DNA from: Thomasclavelia sp.
GTDB taxonomy: Bacteria; Bacillota_I; Bacilli_A; Erysipelotrichales; Coprobacillaceae
Assembly: GCA_028749475.1 (NCBI GenBank)
Contig: JAQVWN010000021.1
Location: forward strand, 1-32,336
Direction of reading: 5' to 3'
DNA length: 32,336 bases
Of this stretch, positions 6,727-17,434 are shown piece by piece. Below the pieces are notes generated by a model. The model ran no database searches, was not told the origin of the DNA, and saw nothing but the letters and a program-made list of their open reading frames with translations. Position numbers and translations under genes: made by a program. Position 1 is the first letter of the stretch; every line of letters begins with the position of its first letter.

Positions 6727-6754
6727 TCCTCTTTTTTTTAATGATAATAAATAT

Positions 6755-6760
6755 TATAAT
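6755..6760 (+). promoter_or_regulatory. -10 element for the diguanylate cyclase pair
   Basis: A perfect TATAAT without a recognisable -35. Initiation near 6767 would exclude the in-frame ATG at 6741 and favours the ATG at 6792. Confidence 0.4.
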
Positions 6761-6791
6761 GAGGGTAAGAAGTGTGAATGGGGAAATCAAT

Positions 6792-8456
6792 ATGAATAAG
6801 AAACAGATTCTTGTAAGGATCTTATTAATGGTCGGTGCGGTCGCATTAATAATAGAAGGATTGTCAATGTTATTCCCACATGGAGAAAATTTTGACAATA
6901 ATATTCAAGTTACCAAAATAAGTTCTAATCAAGAAGTAAGAAAATCAAATAACGGAATGGTTGGTCTTACTAATAAGGGTGATACACTTATTATGAAAGT
7001 CCATCTTCCTAAAAGTAAAAAAATAGACTCTAGTGTTCTATGCTTTTTTGCGTATCACGTTACAGTAAAAGCTACTTATAAAGATGAAACTATTTATTCT
7101 TGGGGACAAGATTATAATAGCGATAATAAGTTAATAGGACTTGTTTGTCCGCAAATTCCAATTCCTAATGAAGCCTGGGGTAATGATATAACCGTTGTAA
7201 TGAATGTAACTGAAAACAACGCTTTTTCTAGACTAGGAACTTTAAAAGTCTATGAAGGAAGTGCAGGACATGATTATGTAGTAGAAAGAGATATCTTTGC
7301 CTTCTTAATTTCCTTTACCGGAATTGTCGTAGGGATTGGATTAACGATTGCCTTGTTCCATCTTGGAGATAGTATGTTAGTAAGTGTTAAAGGTGCTTGT
7401 CTGGGCTTATCTATTTTTATAGTTGGTATCTGGATATTTACTTATTATGGTATTTATAATGTTTTTGTAGGCTCCAACGATATTATTGTTTGGAATGCTG
7501 TTGAATACTTTGCCTTATTTTGTATGTCGATTCCTATCGAAATATATGTTCGTTTATCAATAAGTGATAAAAAAGATAAGAAATTTATGAGTGTAATAAT
7601 TATCTTTAATATATTATTTGTAGTTATCGCTACTTTCTTAAATTACTTTAATATTGTGCATTTTAATGAATTACTTAATTTATCTCATATTACCCAAATA
7701 ATATCGATCTTAATAATGACTCGAGTTATCTACAAGAATAATAAGGATAATAAAATGGAATTAATATTTGATGGGTTTATTATCCTAGTAATTTTTGCGA
7801 TTCTAGATACGATCAGATATAATATTTGGATTTATACTGATATCAATACAATGATTAATTCTAATTCTTTTCTTCCATTAGGACTTAAGATATTCGTTAT
7901 TATTGTCTTAGTATCTTACTTAAATGAGTTAAATGATACTAAAGCTAAAGAAAGAGGATTAGAGAAATTAAAGAATATCGCTTATTATGATTCTTTAACT
8001 AAGGTTTATAATCGAACTAGAATTCAAGAAATACTTCAAACAATTAAAAAAGAAAATAAACAAGTATTTACTATTATTTACTTTGATATTAATTCATTTA
8101 AAACATTTAATGATAATAAAGGACATTTATATGGTGATCAAGTAATTAAACATTTTGCAAAGACATTAAATGTGGCATTTGGTGACATAGGTGCCCTTGG
8201 AAGAATGGGTGGCGATGAATTTATTGTCATTATTCAAAATAAATCATTATCATTAATAGAAAATAGATTAAAAGTATTTTCGAATGAAATAAAGAATGAT
8301 AAAGAATTTAAAAATATTTATTATGATTATGGTGTAGCCATTTCTAATTATGAACTTCCTTTAACTGTTGAAGAAGCTTGTCATATTGCTGATGAAGAAA
8401 TGTATAAAATGAAAAAGAATAATCATCGAGTAAAAGAAGGTGATTATAATGTTTAA
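6792..8456 (+). CDS. Membrane diguanylate cyclase with extracytoplasmic sensor (first paralogue)
   Basis: A 554-residue protein predicted to make c-di-GMP in response to an external cue. Order: a TM segment near the N-terminus (about 8-28), an extracytoplasmic region of roughly 145 residues, a block of about seven TM segments (about 175-390), then a cytoplasmic GGDEF domain. The domain shows YDSLTKVYNR, YFDINSFKTFNDNKGH and an intact GGDEF signature at 473-477, so catalysis is expected. No RxxD inhibitory site precedes the signature. ATG 6792 was chosen over upstream ATG and GTG codons because GGGG lies eight bases before it, and because its GGDEF position then equals that of the next gene. 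It overlaps the second copy by eight bases. Confidence 0.88.
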   Translation: MNKKQILVRILLMVGAVALIIEGLSMLFPHGENFDNNIQVTKISSNQEVRKSNNGMVGLTNKGDTLIMKVHLPKSKKIDSSVLCFFAYHVTVKATYKDETIYSWGQDYNSDNKLIGLVCPQIPIPNEAWGNDITVVMNVTENNAFSRLGTLKVYEGSAGHDYVVERDIFAFLISFTGIVVGIGLTIALFHLGDSMLVSVKGACLGLSIFIVGIWIFTYYGIYNVFVGSNDIIVWNAVEYFALFCMSIPIEIYVRLSISDKKDKKFMSVIIIFNILFVVIATFLNYFNIVHFNELLNLSHITQIISILIMTRVIYKNNKDNKMELIFDGFIILVIFAILDTIRYNIWIYTDINTMINSNSFLPLGLKIFVIIVLVSYLNELNDTKAKERGLEKLKNIAYYDSLTKVYNRTRIQEILQTIKKENKQVFTIIYFDINSFKTFNDNKGHLYGDQVIKHFAKTLNVAFGDIGALGRMGGDEFIVIIQNKSLSLIENRLKVFSNEIKNDKEFKNIYYDYGVAISNYELPLTVEEACHIADEEMYKMKKNNHRVKEGDYNV

Positions 8457-10089
8457 GAAACTTGTTACTGGAATAGGAGGATTAGTAATCTTATTTGGAT
8501 TATTCAATCTATTCTCTATGCGGCTTCCTGCGGGAACAGATATCACGGATAATGTTACATCTAAAGTTGTTAGAGCAGATGGAACAACTAAGACCTATGA
8601 CTCAAATATCTTTGAACTTGTTGGTAAGAAGGATAAAGTCTTTATTACGATTGACTTACCTAAAGATAAAAAAACTTCTAATTCATCTTTAGTATTTCAA
8701 ATTTATCATTCTAGAATAAAAGCTAAATTTGATAATAAAGAAATATATAGTTATGGTTATGACTTAGATAAAGATGAATTTATTGGTGGAAATAGTTATA
8801 TTATTCCTATTCCTTCTAATGCTTGGGGACAAAAAATAACGATTGAGTTAGAACCTACAGAAGATAGTGCATTTAGTCGAGTACCAAAAGTAGATATTTA
8901 TAAAACTCAATATGCATCTTTAGTGGGGGTTAATCGTAATCCTTTAGCTTTTGTCATATCTTTAGTTGCTTTAATAACTGGTGTTACAATTCTAATAGTT
9001 TATTTTGTATTTGATATGGATCGAGATATTGTGATTAATGGTGTATTAATTACTTTATTTGTAGTTTGTATCTCGGGTTATTTACTGATTCATTATGGTT
9101 CATTGTCCTTATTCTTTGGGGTTAACTCCTATCGGACAATCGCTCCATTAGAGTATATCTTCTTGTATCTAGTTGGATTGCCGGTCTTAATTTATATGGC
9201 TCAAGATATTAAACAAGCAAGATTTAAGAAAATAATTAGAGGTATTATGATTTTTCAAATCTTATTTGTAGTCGTGGCTTCAATTCTTCACTATACTAAT
9301 ATCATTCATTTAAACCAATTACTTATCCCGGGACAAATTTTACAGTTTATTGATATTATATTTATATTAAGTATTATAATTTATGATTATCTTCATGAAG
9401 GACACAAAGTAGCAATTACTTTTATTGGATTTATAGCGATGTGTGTATCAGCATTTATTGATGTGGTTGCCTTTTATGCTGCTAGATACTTATCATTAAA
9501 TAATGTGGTTGTAAATGATATCTTCTTTTTACCTATTGGATTATATTTATTTGTAATTAGTCTTTTAGTTAATTATGTAAGTAAGATTAGAGATAAGAGT
9601 ACTCTTATCCAAACTGAACAATATCTTCAAAGTGTCGCTTATTTAGATCCTTTATCAGGCGTAAACAATCGTTCAAAAATGAATGAAACATTTAATAATC
9701 TTTCTAGTAGAAAAGAAAAGAATTATATTATCGTTTATTTTGATTTAAACAATCTAAAGAATATAAACGATAATCAAGGTCATTTTAAAGGTGATGAAGT
9801 TATTAAAGCCTTTGGACAATTAATCTCCAAATACTTTAAAGACATTGGAACTATCGGCAGAATGGGTGGCGATGAATTTGTCGTTGTTGTGGAAAAGGAA
9901 AGTATTGTCGAAGTTCATAAAAGACTTCAACTAATGGAAAAAGCTAATAAACGTCTAGCTAATAGTATTTCATATGGTTATGGAATCGCTACTAGTAAAG
10001 ATAGTGCACCACTATTAATTGAAGAAGCTTTATATATTGCCGACAATGAAATGTATAAAATGAAACAAAGACAAAAAGAGGGTGGATAA
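8449..10089 (+). CDS. Membrane diguanylate cyclase with extracytoplasmic sensor (second paralogue)
   Basis: A 546-residue paralogue of the preceding protein with the same order: a TM near the start, an extracytoplasmic domain (about 28-165) with the shared AFSR motif, about seven TM segments, and a C-terminal GGDEF domain. YLDPLSGVNNR, YFDLNNLKNINDNQGH and GGDEF (473-477) are intact, and again no RxxD inhibitory site is visible. The start at ATG 8449 has AAGAAGG eight bases upstream inside the previous gene, so the two are translationally coupled. A GTG at 8440 is too close to that site. The external domains differ enough that the copies may sense different ligands. No c-di-GMP phosphodiesterase or effector lies in the window. 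Confidence 0.88.
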   Translation: MFKKLVTGIGGLVILFGLFNLFSMRLPAGTDITDNVTSKVVRADGTTKTYDSNIFELVGKKDKVFITIDLPKDKKTSNSSLVFQIYHSRIKAKFDNKEIYSYGYDLDKDEFIGGNSYIIPIPSNAWGQKITIELEPTEDSAFSRVPKVDIYKTQYASLVGVNRNPLAFVISLVALITGVTILIVYFVFDMDRDIVINGVLITLFVVCISGYLLIHYGSLSLFFGVNSYRTIAPLEYIFLYLVGLPVLIYMAQDIKQARFKKIIRGIMIFQILFVVVASILHYTNIIHLNQLLIPGQILQFIDIIFILSIIIYDYLHEGHKVAITFIGFIAMCVSAFIDVVAFYAARYLSLNNVVVNDIFFLPIGLYLFVISLLVNYVSKIRDKSTLIQTEQYLQSVAYLDPLSGVNNRSKMNETFNNLSSRKEKNYIIVYFDLNNLKNINDNQGHFKGDEVIKAFGQLISKYFKDIGTIGRMGGDEFVVVVEKESIVEVHKRLQLMEKANKRLANSISYGYGIATSKDSAPLLIEEALYIADNEMYKMKQRQKEGG

Positions 10090-13225: not shown

Positions 13226-13594
13226 TTATTTACTATTTTTTACAAAAGCATTTATTTTATCCATTGTTTCATCGGAAATAACGTGTTCAATTCGACAAGC
13301 ATCTTCAACCGCAATATCTTTATCAACACCAATACTAATAAAGAAATCAGATAAACTTGTATGTCTAGAATAAATTTTAGTAGCGATAGCTTTTCCTTCA
13401 TCAGTAAGACTGATATAACCTTTAGGATCAGTCATGATATACTTTTCTTTTTTTAGATTAGCTAAGGCTACAGAAACACTTGGTTTAGAGTAATTTAATT
13501 CAGTAGCTATATCAATAGCTCTTACATCTTTATTCTTTTTTGATAAAACATAGATAGTTTCTAAATACATTTCGCCAGATTCATGCATAGCCAT
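13226..13594 (-). CDS. DtxR/MntR-family metal-dependent repressor with iron-type ligands
   Basis: A 122-residue regulator: winged helix (about 5-62) plus a dimerisation/metal domain (about 63-120). It has no C-terminal SH3-like domain, so its length is like MntR. Yet the primary metal site reads M9, C100, E103 and H104 (EDACRIEHVIS), which matches DtxR M10, C102, E105 and H106 rather than the Asp/Glu set of Mn-sensing MntR. The ancillary-site positions equivalent to DtxR E83 and H98 are S82 and V96, so that site looks lost. AGAGGTG precedes the ATG. It is divergent from the lipoprotein gene. Iron sensing is my inference; targets and operator are not identified. Confidence 0.88.
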   Translation of the reverse strand: MAMHESGEMYLETIYVLSKKNKDVRAIDIATELNYSKPSVSVALANLKKEKYIMTDPKGYISLTDEGKAIATKIYSRHTSLSDFFISIGVDKDIAVEDACRIEHVISDETMDKINAFVKNSK

Positions 13595-13707: not shown

Positions 13708-14169
13708 ATGAAAAAAATAATAGTCTTTTTTGTAGCAATTATGATGTCTTTTAGTATTGTTGGCTGCTCAGCTGCCAAAGATAAAGAAGTATTATCAGTT
13801 AAAGATTTTGAAACAATCACAACTAAAGAAGGTTTTACTTACTATGATATTACGAGTCAATATAGTTATAGTTATTTAAAGAATGTCTCAATCGCTAAAA
13901 ACTCAACATATCAAATAGAATTCTATCAATATGATACTTCTAGTAGAGCTAAATCATCTTTTGATAATAATAAAGATAATCTTGAAAACGATGCTAGTGG
14001 TTCTAAAACCACAAAATCTACAAATCTTAAAAACTATAATACTTATTCTATTACTGATTCATACTCATATGGTTATCTATGTCGGGTAGAAAACACAATG
14101 ATCTATGTCAATACAAAAAAAGCATATAAAGATGATGTTGTAAAGGTTTTAAAGAAATTAGGATATTAA
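13708..14169 (+). CDS. Small lipoprotein of unknown function
   Basis: A 153-residue protein with a lipoprotein signal peptide: MKK, a hydrophobic core, and the lipobox SIVGCS with Cys20 as the probable lipidated residue. The mature part is rich in Ser, Tyr and Lys and contains no motif I recognise. It should be anchored to the outer face of the membrane. It is divergent from the DtxR-type regulator, which could control it, but no operator is obvious in the 113-base gap. The terminator begins within its stop codon. Confidence 0.8.
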   Translation: MKKIIVFFVAIMMSFSIVGCSAAKDKEVLSVKDFETITTKEGFTYYDITSQYSYSYLKNVSIAKNSTYQIEFYQYDTSSRAKSSFDNNKDNLENDASGSKTTKSTNLKNYNTYSITDSYSYGYLCRVENTMIYVNTKKAYKDDVVKVLKKLGY

Positions 14170-14190
14170 GTCTTCTATTGAAGACTTTTT
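14168..14190 (+). terminator. Terminator of the lipoprotein gene
   Basis: AAGTCTTC-TATT-GAAGACTT forms an 8-bp stem that includes part of the TAA stop codon, followed by TTT. Confidence 0.85.
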
Positions 14191-14219
14191 CTTTATTCTA
14201 ATTTAATAGAGTGCTAATA

Positions 14220-14256
14220 TTAAGTATATATTAAGTTTACATTAATTTTTTTAATC
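14220..14256 (+). promoter_or_regulatory. Probable Pho box (PhoP-type direct repeats) upstream of ppk
   Basis: Hexamers TTAAGT (14220), TTAAGT (14231), TTAATT (14242) and TTAATC (14251) repeat with steps of 11, 11 and 9 bases. Tandem TT(A/C/T)A-type hexamers on an 11-base period are the known form of PhoP boxes in Bacillus-type promoters. The array ends about 27 bases before a perfect -10. Confidence 0.6.
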
Positions 14257-14282
14257 TTCCGATTTTGTTGGAATAGACTTGT

Positions 14283-14288
14283 TATAAT
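14283..14288 (+). promoter_or_regulatory. -10 element of the ppk operon
   Basis: A perfect TATAAT with no acceptable -35 at the usual distance (14260-14265 reads CGATTT). This fits a promoter that depends on an activator bound just upstream. Confidence 0.6.
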
Positions 14289-14317
14289 ATCAAATAGTCT
14301 AAAGGAGGAAATATAAT

Positions 14318-16351
14318 ATGAAAGGTTATTTAGAAAACAGAGAACTATCATGGTTAAAGTTTAATGATAGGGTTTTAATGCAAGCAGACGATAAGAATGT
14401 TCCCCTTGGGGAACAACTATCATTCATTTCAATATTTCAATCAAATATTGATGAATTTACAAGAGTTAGACTTGGATCTTTATATGATCAAGAACTTTTT
14501 TATCCTGGTCTAGAAGATGACAAGACAGGGATGACAGCTCAGGAACAAATCAAATCTTGTGCGAGAAAGATTAGATATTTATATAAAAAGAAAGATAAAA
14601 TTCTAGGAAGAATTTTATCAGATTTAAATAATTATGATTTTGAAATCTTAAATTTTAAAGATATCAAATCAAAAGAAGATAAGAAATACTTAGAGGATTA
14701 TTTTTATAATGAGTTACTACCTTTAATATCACCGCAAGTTATATCGAAAAGACAACCATTTCCTTTTTTAAATGATCGGGAATTATATATTGGTGTTCAA
14801 CTTGAAAGTAAAAAAGGAAAAAGAAAAACCGGAGTAGTATCTTTAACTGGAACAGCAGATAATCGTTTAGTTAGAATTCCGGGGACAAATACTTATACTT
14901 TGTCTGAAAATATTGTTATGCATTTTGTCTCTAAATTATTTCCTAAATATGTTGTTAAAAGAAAGAGTTTTATGAGAGTAACTCGAAGTGCGGATATTGA
15001 TGAGGATGATATCAATGTTGAAGAAGGTACTGATTATTTAAATATCATGGAAACCTTAATCAAACAAAGAAGAAGACTAGCTCCACTTAGATTAGAACTA
15101 TCTGGTTCATTAGATGATATTGAATTAGATTCTTTAAAACTATTATTAAAGATTGATGATAATCAAATCTTTAATAGTAAAAATACTTTAGATTTATCGG
15201 TTGTATCAGATATTAGAGATATATTAAAAACTAGTAATCCGGAATTATTCTATTCTAAATTAGAACCTCGTAATAGTTCAATGATTGAAAATACAACTCC
15301 AATGATTAAACAAATCGAAAAGAAAGATTTAATGCTAGCATATCCTTTTGAATCGATATCTCCATTTTTAAGATTACTTAATGAAGCCAGTAATAATCCA
15401 GAAGTAGTATCAATTAAGATGACTTTATATCGAGTAGCTCATACATCGAAAGTAGTTAAAGCATTAATTAATGCTGCTGAAAATGGAAAAGAAGTAGTAG
15501 TTTTAGTCGAGTTAAGAGCTAGATTTGATGAAGAGAATAATATTGGTTGGGCTAAAAGACTAGAACAAGCTGGAGCCCATGTTATATATGGTTTAGATCA
15601 TTATAAAGTTCATTCTAAATTATTACTAATAACTACTAAAAATCAAAGAGGTATTAATTATGTCTGGCAAGTTGGTACAGGAAACTATAATGAAACAACT
15701 GCTCGGCTATATACTGATTTAATTGTAATGAGTAGTTTTCAACCAATAGGAGAAGAAATAAATGATATCTTTAATCATTTACTTCGAGGTGAAACTGTTG
15801 AAAGTGTAGAACATTTAATGGTTGCTCCTAATGCAATGGAAAATAAAATTATTGATCATATTGATGCCCAAATAGAACTTTCTAAAAATGGAAAGAATGC
15901 TTATATTGGAATGAAATGTAACTCCGTTACATCAAAAGTGATTATGAATAAATTAGTTGAAGCCAGCCGGGCTGGTGTCAAGATTGAAATGATTGTTCGA
16001 GGAATATGTTGTCTAGTTCCTGGTATTAAAGGATCAACAGAAAATATTAAGGTTATAAGTATTGTTGGAAGATATCTAGAACATTCTAGAATATATATCT
16101 TTGGTAAAGATAATCCAGAAGTATATATTTCATCTGCCGATTTAATGACAAGGAACTTAGAAAAAAGGGTAGAAGTTGCAGCCCCAATCTATGATGAAGG
16201 AATTAGAGATACTTTAGTATCAATGTTTAAAACAATGTTTAAAGATAATGTTAAAGCAAGTAAACTTACTAGTGAAGGAGTATATCGCAAAGTAAGTAAT
16301 AAACATAAGGAAATTAATAGTCAGGAATATTTCTTTAAGAAACTAAAATAA
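14318..16351 (+). CDS. ppk: Polyphosphate kinase 1
   Basis: A 677-residue enzyme that reversibly polymerises the ATP gamma-phosphate into polyphosphate. It opens with the conserved ENRELSWLKFNDRV, followed by FQSNIDEFTRVR. The two catalytic PLD-like domains contain GLDHYKVHSKLLL with the autophosphorylated His at 432, and EHSRIYIFG with His589; these match E. coli His435 and His592. SADLMTRNLEKRVEVAAPI is also intact. Length is standard. AAAGGAGG precedes the ATG. Upstream are Pho box repeats; the phosphofructokinase gene begins 12 bases after the stop, so both form an operon. Confidence 0.97.
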   Translation: MKGYLENRELSWLKFNDRVLMQADDKNVPLGEQLSFISIFQSNIDEFTRVRLGSLYDQELFYPGLEDDKTGMTAQEQIKSCARKIRYLYKKKDKILGRILSDLNNYDFEILNFKDIKSKEDKKYLEDYFYNELLPLISPQVISKRQPFPFLNDRELYIGVQLESKKGKRKTGVVSLTGTADNRLVRIPGTNTYTLSENIVMHFVSKLFPKYVVKRKSFMRVTRSADIDEDDINVEEGTDYLNIMETLIKQRRRLAPLRLELSGSLDDIELDSLKLLLKIDDNQIFNSKNTLDLSVVSDIRDILKTSNPELFYSKLEPRNSSMIENTTPMIKQIEKKDLMLAYPFESISPFLRLLNEASNNPEVVSIKMTLYRVAHTSKVVKALINAAENGKEVVVLVELRARFDEENNIGWAKRLEQAGAHVIYGLDHYKVHSKLLLITTKNQRGINYVWQVGTGNYNETTARLYTDLIVMSSFQPIGEEINDIFNHLLRGETVESVEHLMVAPNAMENKIIDHIDAQIELSKNGKNAYIGMKCNSVTSKVIMNKLVEASRAGVKIEMIVRGICCLVPGIKGSTENIKVISIVGRYLEHSRIYIFGKDNPEVYISSADLMTRNLEKRVEVAAPIYDEGIRDTLVSMFKTMFKDNVKASKLTSEGVYRKVSNKHKEINSQEYFFKKLK

Positions 16352-16363
16352 AGGAGAGGTAAT

Positions 16364-17434
16364 ATGAGAGTTGGGATACTTACAAGTGGAGGAGACTGTC
16401 AAGCTTTAAACGCTACTATGGCTGGGCTAGCAAGAACTCTATATAAAAATGTTAAAGATGTTGAAATAATAGGTTTTATTGATGGTTATAAAGGTTTAAT
16501 GAATGGTAATTATAAGATAATGGAACCTAGTGATTTTGAAGGTATATCTAATTTAGGAGGAACTATCTTAGGTTCTTCAAGATGTCCTTTTAAAATGATG
16601 AGAGTAATTGAAGATGGCTTTGATAAAGTTGAAGCCATGAAAAATACTTATAAAAAACTAAAACTAGATAGTTTAGCAGTTTTAGGCGGAAATGGTTCTA
16701 TCAAATCGGCTAATATGCTTTCTGAGGAAGGGCTAAACGTTATTGGATTACCAAAGACCATCGACAATGATACTTGGGGTACTGATTATACTTTTGGTTA
16801 TCAAAGTGCTATCAATATTGCCACGAACTACCTTGATCAAATAAATACCACAGCTAATTCCCATCATCGAGTATTCGTCGTTGAAATAATGGGTCATAAA
16901 GTTGGTCATATCTGTTTAAGTGCAGGTATTGCTGCTGATTGTCCAATTATTCTTCTTCCTGAAATACCTTATGATATAAAAAATATTACTAAAGTTATTA
17001 AAAGAAGACAAAAAGCCGGGGTTAATTATACGGTGATTGCCTGCTCAGAAGGAGCTTTATCAGTTGATGAAGCTAAACTAACTAAGAAAGAATATAAAAA
17101 GGTTGTAGCTAAAAGAAAAGGATTATCAGTTGTTTATGGAATTGCTGATGAACTTGCTAAACAAATAGATGGCGAAATTAGAACAGCTGTTTGTGGTCAT
17201 GTTCAAAGAGGAGGTAATCCTTGTCCTTATGATCGCAAGATTTCTGCTTTATTTGGAATTGAAGGAGCTAGACTTATTATGGATCAAGACTTTGGTAAGT
17301 TTGTGGTCTTAAATGGTGAAAAGATTACTAGCATTAAATTAGAAGATACGGCTGGTAAACTTAAATATGTTGATGTTAAAGGTAAAACAGTTAAGAATGC
17401 AAAATTACTTGGCATATCATTCGGAGATGAATAG
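16364..17434 (+). CDS. 6-phosphofructokinase family enzyme, phosphoryl donor uncertain
   Basis: A 356-residue PFK-A family enzyme phosphorylating fructose-6-phosphate in glycolysis. Seen: GILTSGGDCQALNA, GFIDGYKGL, TILGSSR, LGGNGSIKSA, PKTIDND with catalytic Asp134, EIMGHKVGH and CGHVQRGGNPCPYDRK. Two donor-site positions are informative. Gly111 (E. coli Gly104) is the ATP-type residue, whereas Lys131 (E. coli Gly124) is the residue found in pyrophosphate-dependent and some ATP-dependent long PFKs. The Asp before the Gly is replaced by Asn110. The donor could therefore be ATP or PPi. Co-transcription with ppk (12-base gap, AAGGAG site) is unusual. Confidence in the family is high, in the donor low. 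Confidence 0.9.
   Translation: MRVGILTSGGDCQALNATMAGLARTLYKNVKDVEIIGFIDGYKGLMNGNYKIMEPSDFEGISNLGGTILGSSRCPFKMMRVIEDGFDKVEAMKNTYKKLKLDSLAVLGGNGSIKSANMLSEEGLNVIGLPKTIDNDTWGTDYTFGYQSAINIATNYLDQINTTANSHHRVFVVEIMGHKVGHICLSAGIAADCPIILLPEIPYDIKNITKVIKRRQKAGVNYTVIACSEGALSVDEAKLTKKEYKKVVAKRKGLSVVYGIADELAKQIDGEIRTAVCGHVQRGGNPCPYDRKISALFGIEGARLIMDQDFGKFVVLNGEKITSIKLEDTAGKLKYVDVKGKTVKNAKLLGISFGDE

Follow-up and report, generated by a model that had tools for sequence, protein, structure and literature searches.

A conserved Pho-type site and a PPK1-associated phosphofructokinase clade at the ppk–pfk locus of Thomasclavelia

The ppk–pfk gene pair described here lies in a 32,336-nucleotide stretch of DNA from Thomasclavelia sp. 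(assembly GCA_028749475.1, contig JAQVWN010000021.1, positions 1–32,336, forward strand; hereafter the window), which has a G+C content of 30% and belongs to a genome of 1.84 Mb in 43 contigs. The two genes encode polyphosphate kinase 1 (PPK1) and a phosphofructokinase (PFK). They are preceded by a phosphate-regulon (Pho) type site that recurs before ppk in relatives, and the PFK belongs to a clade with altered donor-site residues that accompanies PPK1 in nearly all of the genomes that carry it. Tentatively, and with slightly more doubt than conviction, we propose that ppk and pfk form a Pho-regulated operon whose PFK phosphorylates fructose 6-phosphate with polyphosphate, or with short chains or pyrophosphate (PPi) derived from it.

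The gene pair and the PFK clade

14318–16351, plus strand: ppk, polyphosphate kinase 1, 677 residues, with four PPK1 domains and a match to TIGR03705.
16364–17434, plus strand: pfk, PfkA-superfamily phosphofructokinase, 356 residues, of the PPK1-linked clade with an altered donor site.

The ppk product is a complete PPK1, with all four PPK1 domains and a TIGR03705 score of 709.6 bits (cut-off 465.85). A first-pass annotation, made from the sequence of the window, had pointed out the 12 bases between the end of ppk (16351) and the start of pfk (16364) and the mixed donor-site residues of the PFK, and both were confirmed, the latter in the motifs GGNGS and PKTIDND. It had also suggested a survey of the adjacency across relatives, which proved to be a family-wide rule. 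In a family sample of 43 genomes, 28 have a close PPK, and pfk adjoins ppk in 27 of these; in the 28th (G037), ppk runs off its contig. All 26 pairs on the same contig are separated by 12–49 bases, counted from the last sense codon of ppk to pfk and including the stop codon, and one pair (G041) is split over two contigs, with the PPK tail beside pfk. Within genera, the two genes are also absent together (G020, G023 and G040). Beyond the family, 15 of 80 PPK loci, 11 of them clostridial, have a pfk of this type no more than 4 kb from ppk. Three arrangements occur: pfk 3' of ppk, pfk 5' of ppk in the same orientation, and pfk on the other strand. Such variety in arrangement argues for selection of the ppk–pfk link over inheritance alone.

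The distribution of the clade was determined by searching 392 Bacillota and 393 Clostridia genomes with an alignment of ten members. For Clostridia, the boundary of the clade was drawn after a gap in the scores had been seen (482.9 bits or more versus 387 or less among the matches listed). In Bacillota the clade is present in 14 genomes, all 14 of which encode PPK1, against 42 of 392 overall. In Clostridia it is present in 72 genomes, 71 of them with PPK1, compared with 89 of the 321 genomes without the clade and 14 of the 57 that have only a lower-scoring PFK group. The clade pfk and ppk are less than 10 kb apart in at least 16 of these 71 clostridial genomes, and close pairs were not seen in the rest; most of the association therefore does not appear to reflect physical linkage. 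A quick tree search over 68 members of the clade and 23 other PFKs places all 68 to one side of a branch whose Shimodaira–Hasegawa-like approximate likelihood ratio (SH-aLRT) support is 99; the member from G004 (L229) sits on a long branch. The clade PFK is accompanied by at least one other PFK in each of six clostridial genomes in which the two genes are linked.

The surroundings of the clade gene were also inspected in 41 loci without ppk adjacency, with genes named from their translations. The clade pfk stands beside a dnaX-like gene in 14 of these loci and beside prmC-like and DUF1385-like genes in four; no second polyphosphate enzyme was seen near it in the 41 loci. In the 14 clostridial loci with a dnaX-like neighbour (L232–L242 and others), PPK1 is encoded elsewhere in the same genome.

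Family assignment and donor site of the PFK

The PF00365 domain is matched at 298.6 bits, above its cut-off, which places the window PFK in the PfkA superfamily. The protein scores below the classical ATP-PFK equivalog TIGR02482 (241 versus 371.35), with Asn and Lys in place of Asp103 and Gly124, and also below the PFK_mixed model TIGR02483 (317.8 versus 430.55), which is its second-best family match. Residues are numbered here as in Escherichia coli PFK, mapped by alignment, so that GGNGS contains Asn103 and Gly104 and PKTIDND contains Lys124.

All 68 clade members keep the sugar-site and catalytic residues Asp127, Asp129, Arg162, Glu222, His249 and Arg252, as well as Gly104 and Lys124. In addition, 23 positions are close to invariant within the clade but uncommon among other PFKs. 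Clade-typical residues among them are Gln14, Lys76, Asn103, Lys107, His171 and Lys172, with Asp103 changed to Asn and Arg171 to His; Gln14 is less telling, since human PFK also has it. Positions 76 and 107 presumably face the ATP adenine, with 103 at the magnesium of the nucleotide and 171 near the transferred phosphate. Gly104 permits a donor longer than PPi, Lys124 is typical of PPi enzymes, and Asp104 marks PPi-PFKs. An open donor site together with extra lysines would suit a long polyanion, and in our preferred reading the clade PFK is linked to polyphosphate and probably uses it. A tie between this PFK and polyphosphate had been offered as speculation in the first-pass annotation, and it gains weight from the co-occurrence with PPK1 and the donor-site changes.

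Several points count against polyphosphate as the donor. The roles of the residues are carried over from E. coli PFK. Gly104 leaves room for ATP as well, and an ATP enzyme is possible. The model NF002872 is matched at 321.4 bits (cut-off 253), and its label, 'ATP-dependent 6-phosphofructokinase', is no test of the donor. An AlphaFold model built from a 10-row alignment is poor, with a predicted local distance difference test (pLDDT) score of 71, too low to measure the donor site. As to co-occurrence, Fisher's test for Clostridia gives 8e-32, a value that ignores the kinship of the species. A single clostridial genome in the sample (G572; C5:54751-55821) has a clade PFK and no PPK1 match, either a genuine exception or possibly the result of a gap in the assembly, and the family genome G001 (69% complete) contains a PFK fragment and no PPK.

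In one alternative, the protein is an accessory ATP-PFK, co-expressed with ppk, that keeps glycolysis up at low phosphate and ATP, with PPK1 supplying ATP in reverse. The PFKs of actinobacteria with Gly104 and Lys124 are ordinary ATP enzymes, and such a role is in keeping with the passed NF002872 cut-off, with Gly104 in every clade member and with three other PFKs elsewhere in the genome. However, the clade-specific Lys76, Lys107, Asn103 and His171 cluster in the presumed nucleotide site, and plain ATP use leaves the presence of PPK1 in 71 of 72 genomes unexplained. We consider this alternative unlikely, if a serious one.

A PPi-PFK, using pyrophosphate as donor and releasing phosphate under starvation, with an indirect link to PPK1, is improbable. 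Plant PPi-PFK is thought to release phosphate under starvation, Lys124 is as in PPi enzymes, and Asn103 recurs in the PPi-type paralogue encoded by the window genome (GGNDS). Yet the PPi-PFK marker Asp104 is replaced by Gly in all 68 members, scores for the PPi-PFK models fall far below their cut-offs (119.6 versus 273 for NF010675; 85.7 versus 587.95 for TIGR02477), and every cell makes PPi, which leaves the dependence on PPK1 unexplained.

The ppk promoter and its conservation

14168–14187, plus strand: intrinsic-terminator-like hairpin (8 pairs, loop of 4, T tail), 3' of a lipoprotein-like open reading frame.
14218–14245, minus strand: three Pho-box-like hexamers at 11-bp steps, TTAATG-N5-TTAATA-N5-TTAATA, agreeing with TTWAYA at 17 of 18 letters.
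14220–14256, plus strand: four TTAA hexamers of the first-pass annotation, starting at 14220, 14231, 14242 and 14251.
14280–14288, plus strand: extended -10 element TGTTATAAT without a -35, from sequence reading and a promoter scan.

The hairpin closes the lipoprotein-like gene upstream, and ppk is therefore taken as the start of its own transcription unit. The four hexamers (TTAAGT 14220–14225, TTAAGT 14231–14236, TTAATT 14242–14247 and TTAATC 14251–14256), at steps of 11, 11 and 9, are present as the first-pass annotation had described them, and so is its -10 lacking a -35: TATAAT at 14283–14288 is preceded by TGT, as in an extended -10, no -35-like hexamer stands 16–18 bp 5' of it, and the promoter scan lists no promoter pair there. 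The hexamer consensus of the Bacillus subtilis PhoP box is TTWAYA, and its best reading is the minus-strand site at 14218–14245, with 1 mismatch in 18. In the window, two sites have at most one mismatch to the TTWAYA array, compared with 0.2 expected from simulated sequence. The exact pattern TTAA-N7-TTAA-N7-TTAA occurs in only two places in the genome, the ppk promoter and the promoter of an npt-like gene, which encodes a Na/Pi-cotransporter-like protein with PhoU domains and whose own site is perfect (18 of 18 letters versus TTWAYA). The fourth hexamer (14251) follows at a step of 9, which puts it out of register; it is probably not a box, and the reading of four plus-strand boxes was rejected on that ground. 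Viewed by eye, the npt-like promoters of relatives show two groups of boxes on opposite strands, with a 9-base step where the strand changes. Taken alone, the repeats in the window are suggestive of a Pho site; the case for such a site is made by its conservation in relatives.

Conservation was assessed with a matrix trained on the pstS promoters of 16 relatives (TTTACA-N5-TTAACA), with ppk promoters excluded from training. Thirty pstS loci were fetched and 28 viewed, and 16 were chosen by eye, avoiding near-copies and unclear sites, each matching a regular expression. The test covered three boxes at 11-bp steps in loci of ~5 kb from 22 of the 28 genomes with a close PPK, the window genome included; the others were left out for contig ends (G007, G028, G032 and G039), masking (G011) or a broken reading frame (G034). 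In 15 of the 22 loci, representing six genera, the best matrix site of the locus falls within 200 bp 5' of ppk; the window locus is not among the 15. Other box steps (6–10 and 12–18) place the best site before ppk in only 0–5 of the 22 loci. Column-permuted matrices reached 15 of 22 in 5 of 719 cases, at least one of which merely reproduces the true matrix, whose first and second columns hardly differ. The first-pass annotation had named absence of the repeats before ppk in close relatives as the outcome that would undo its proposal; instead, an 11-bp-step site ranks best in those 15 loci. Many relatives have minus-strand boxes ~85–125 bp 5' of the ppk start, and the window site, at about -100 from that start, occupies the same place. 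In four others (G014, G033, G017 and G026), plus-strand boxes precede ppk, with TTTACA repeats of the pstS type.

The genome also contains a pstS-pstC-pstA-pstB-phoU-phoP-phoR cluster (genes named from translations, PhoU by domain search), in which a response regulator and a histidine kinase, the cognate PhoP–PhoR pair, lie 3' of pstSCAB-phoU. Within this pst operon, between pstS and pstC, a minus-strand TTAACA-N5-TTAACA pair (L104 9102–9129, contig C26 of the window genome) suggests an internal start that may be Pho-controlled. At L105 11497–11560 and in the npt-like promoters L166–L178, opposite-strand box groups with a 9-base step between them are conserved in relatives, as judged by eye; the npt-like promoter boxes are possibly shared with a divergent ABC-transporter-like gene.

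Several observations speak against a conventional Pho-activated promoter at ppk. The window site reads best on the minus strand, opposite to the orientation at pstS, and by the relatives' pstS matrix it is weak, ranking 12 in the window and 4 in the 5-kb locus. The boxes stand ~40–75 bp 5' of the likely transcription start, farther than PhoP boxes usually stand from the promoter. Among the 22 loci, clear boxes by the pstS matrix are missing in the ppk promoters of G010 and G022, and G029 joins these two as a genome whose site is absent or poor. In 11 clostridial ppk loci, a convincing box pair was found only in L051, a weak negative because the matrix suits AT-rich genomes only. Since the pstS boxes of relatives read on the plus strand and the ppk boxes, ~40–75 bp before the start, read best on the minus strand, the 'signature of a PhoP-activated promoter' ascribed to the arrangement by the first-pass annotation is not supported in that form. 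The ppk site is real and conserved, its layout is not a textbook activating one, and activation is inferred. Phosphate control of ppk–pfk, as that annotation proposed, is upheld in part: a conserved phosphate-regulon site precedes the operon in a genome with PhoP–PhoR, Pst and PhoU. PhoP is the likely regulator, with activation the likely direction of control. Pho control as the cause of the PFK–PPK association was considered and rejected, as most of the 11 clostridial ppk loci examined with this AT-suited matrix lack boxes; on these promoters, Pho control of ppk is a family trait and not the cause of the link.

A WalR-type regulator, or another of the OmpR family, might instead be the one that binds the boxes; we regard it as a weak candidate. 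The WalR consensus is TGTWAH-N5-TGTWAH, and plus-strand TGTAAA repeats (TGTAAA-N5-...-TGTAAA) in G016, G025 and G030 fit it, but pstS-type plus-strand TTTACA repeats stand at about the same place in G014, G033, G017 and G026, and the same upstream TGTTAA-type pair also precedes the npt-like gene. Chance repeats in an AT-rich genome, to which the weak matrix score of the window site and the out-of-register hexamer might point, were rejected as very improbable, because the position and the 11-bp step are conserved in six genera.

Two other features of the window were noted. An MntR/DtxR-family metal regulator, identified by family searches, is encoded near the operon on the minus strand (13226–13594). 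Two similar, overlapping open reading frames (6741–8456 and 8440–10089), whose products both combine a membrane region with a GGDEF motif, form a diguanylate-cyclase-like tandem duplication.

Proposed mechanism and comparison with known systems

Under phosphate limitation, phosphorylated PhoP would bind the 11-bp-spaced hexamers ~40–75 bp 5' of the transcription start, where it would most likely raise joint transcription of ppk and pfk from the extended -10 promoter. The clade PFK, with its sugar site intact and its nucleotide site apparently rebuilt (Asn103, Lys76, Lys107, His171, Gly104 and Lys124), would then draw phosphate for fructose 6-phosphate from polyphosphate, or from short chains or PPi released from it. 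Use of polyphosphate in this way could save ATP and return phosphate when phosphate is scarce. A bolder version, which we hold with less confidence and consider doubtful, is that this new PFK clade of Erysipelotrichaceae and Clostridia has polyphosphate as its natural donor and a former adenine pocket lined by lysines (76 and 107), is retained only where PPK1 supplies the donor, and in Erysipelotrichaceae is induced with ppk by phosphate starvation, the bacterial equivalent of the bypass that PPi-PFK provides in plants.

The shared promoter, the gene order and the distribution across genomes are three signs that connect the committed glycolytic step with the polymer in which phosphate is stored. 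Should the PFK use polyphosphate, upper glycolysis in a widespread gut lineage could run on stored phosphate and not on ATP, and there would be a direct enzymatic test for the purpose of polyphosphate in anaerobic Firmicutes. Even with ATP as donor, a PFK clade that nearly always accompanies PPK1 calls for explanation.

Among the entries listed by literature searches, none was seen to describe a ppk–pfk operon or, by that name, a polyphosphate-dependent phosphofructokinase. Other kinases do draw on polyphosphate: excerpts of PMC8553519 and PMC12965863 name polyphosphate-dependent kinases, including glucokinase and NAD kinase, with no PFK among those named there, and one of these passages describes a GGDG motif common to NAD kinase and PFK. 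The proposed PFK would resemble the glucokinase and NAD kinase in its source of phosphate.

The locus resembles the Pho regulons of B. subtilis (PhoP–PhoR) and E. coli (PhoB–PhoR) in its 11-nucleotide repeats and Pho-type ppk promoter, and PhoP, PhoR, Pst and PhoU are present here. It differs in having a PFK gene 3' of ppk and boxes that read best on the minus strand and stand farther 5' than those of the family's pstS promoters. In its available passages, PMC4415409 describes the Pho box as direct-repeat units of 11 nucleotides and names Ppk as Pho-induced.

Among PFKs, two comparisons are closest to hand. Ding et al. reportedly found in 2001 that the PPi-PFK of Thermotoga maritima prefers polyphosphate. 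Like the PFK proposed here, that protein is a PfkA-superfamily enzyme able to use polyphosphate; unlike it, the T. maritima enzyme groups with the PPi-PFKs and carries Asp104, where the present clade has Gly104. An excerpt of PMC10339645, in which the 2001 study is cited, refers to T. maritima PFKs and to the inhibition of T. maritima PfkA by polyphosphate. The group III PFKs of TIGR02483 (PFK_mixed; Gly104, Lys124) share the mixed donor-site residues, whereas the window PFK scores below the cut-off of that model and is set apart by Asn103, Lys107 and His171.

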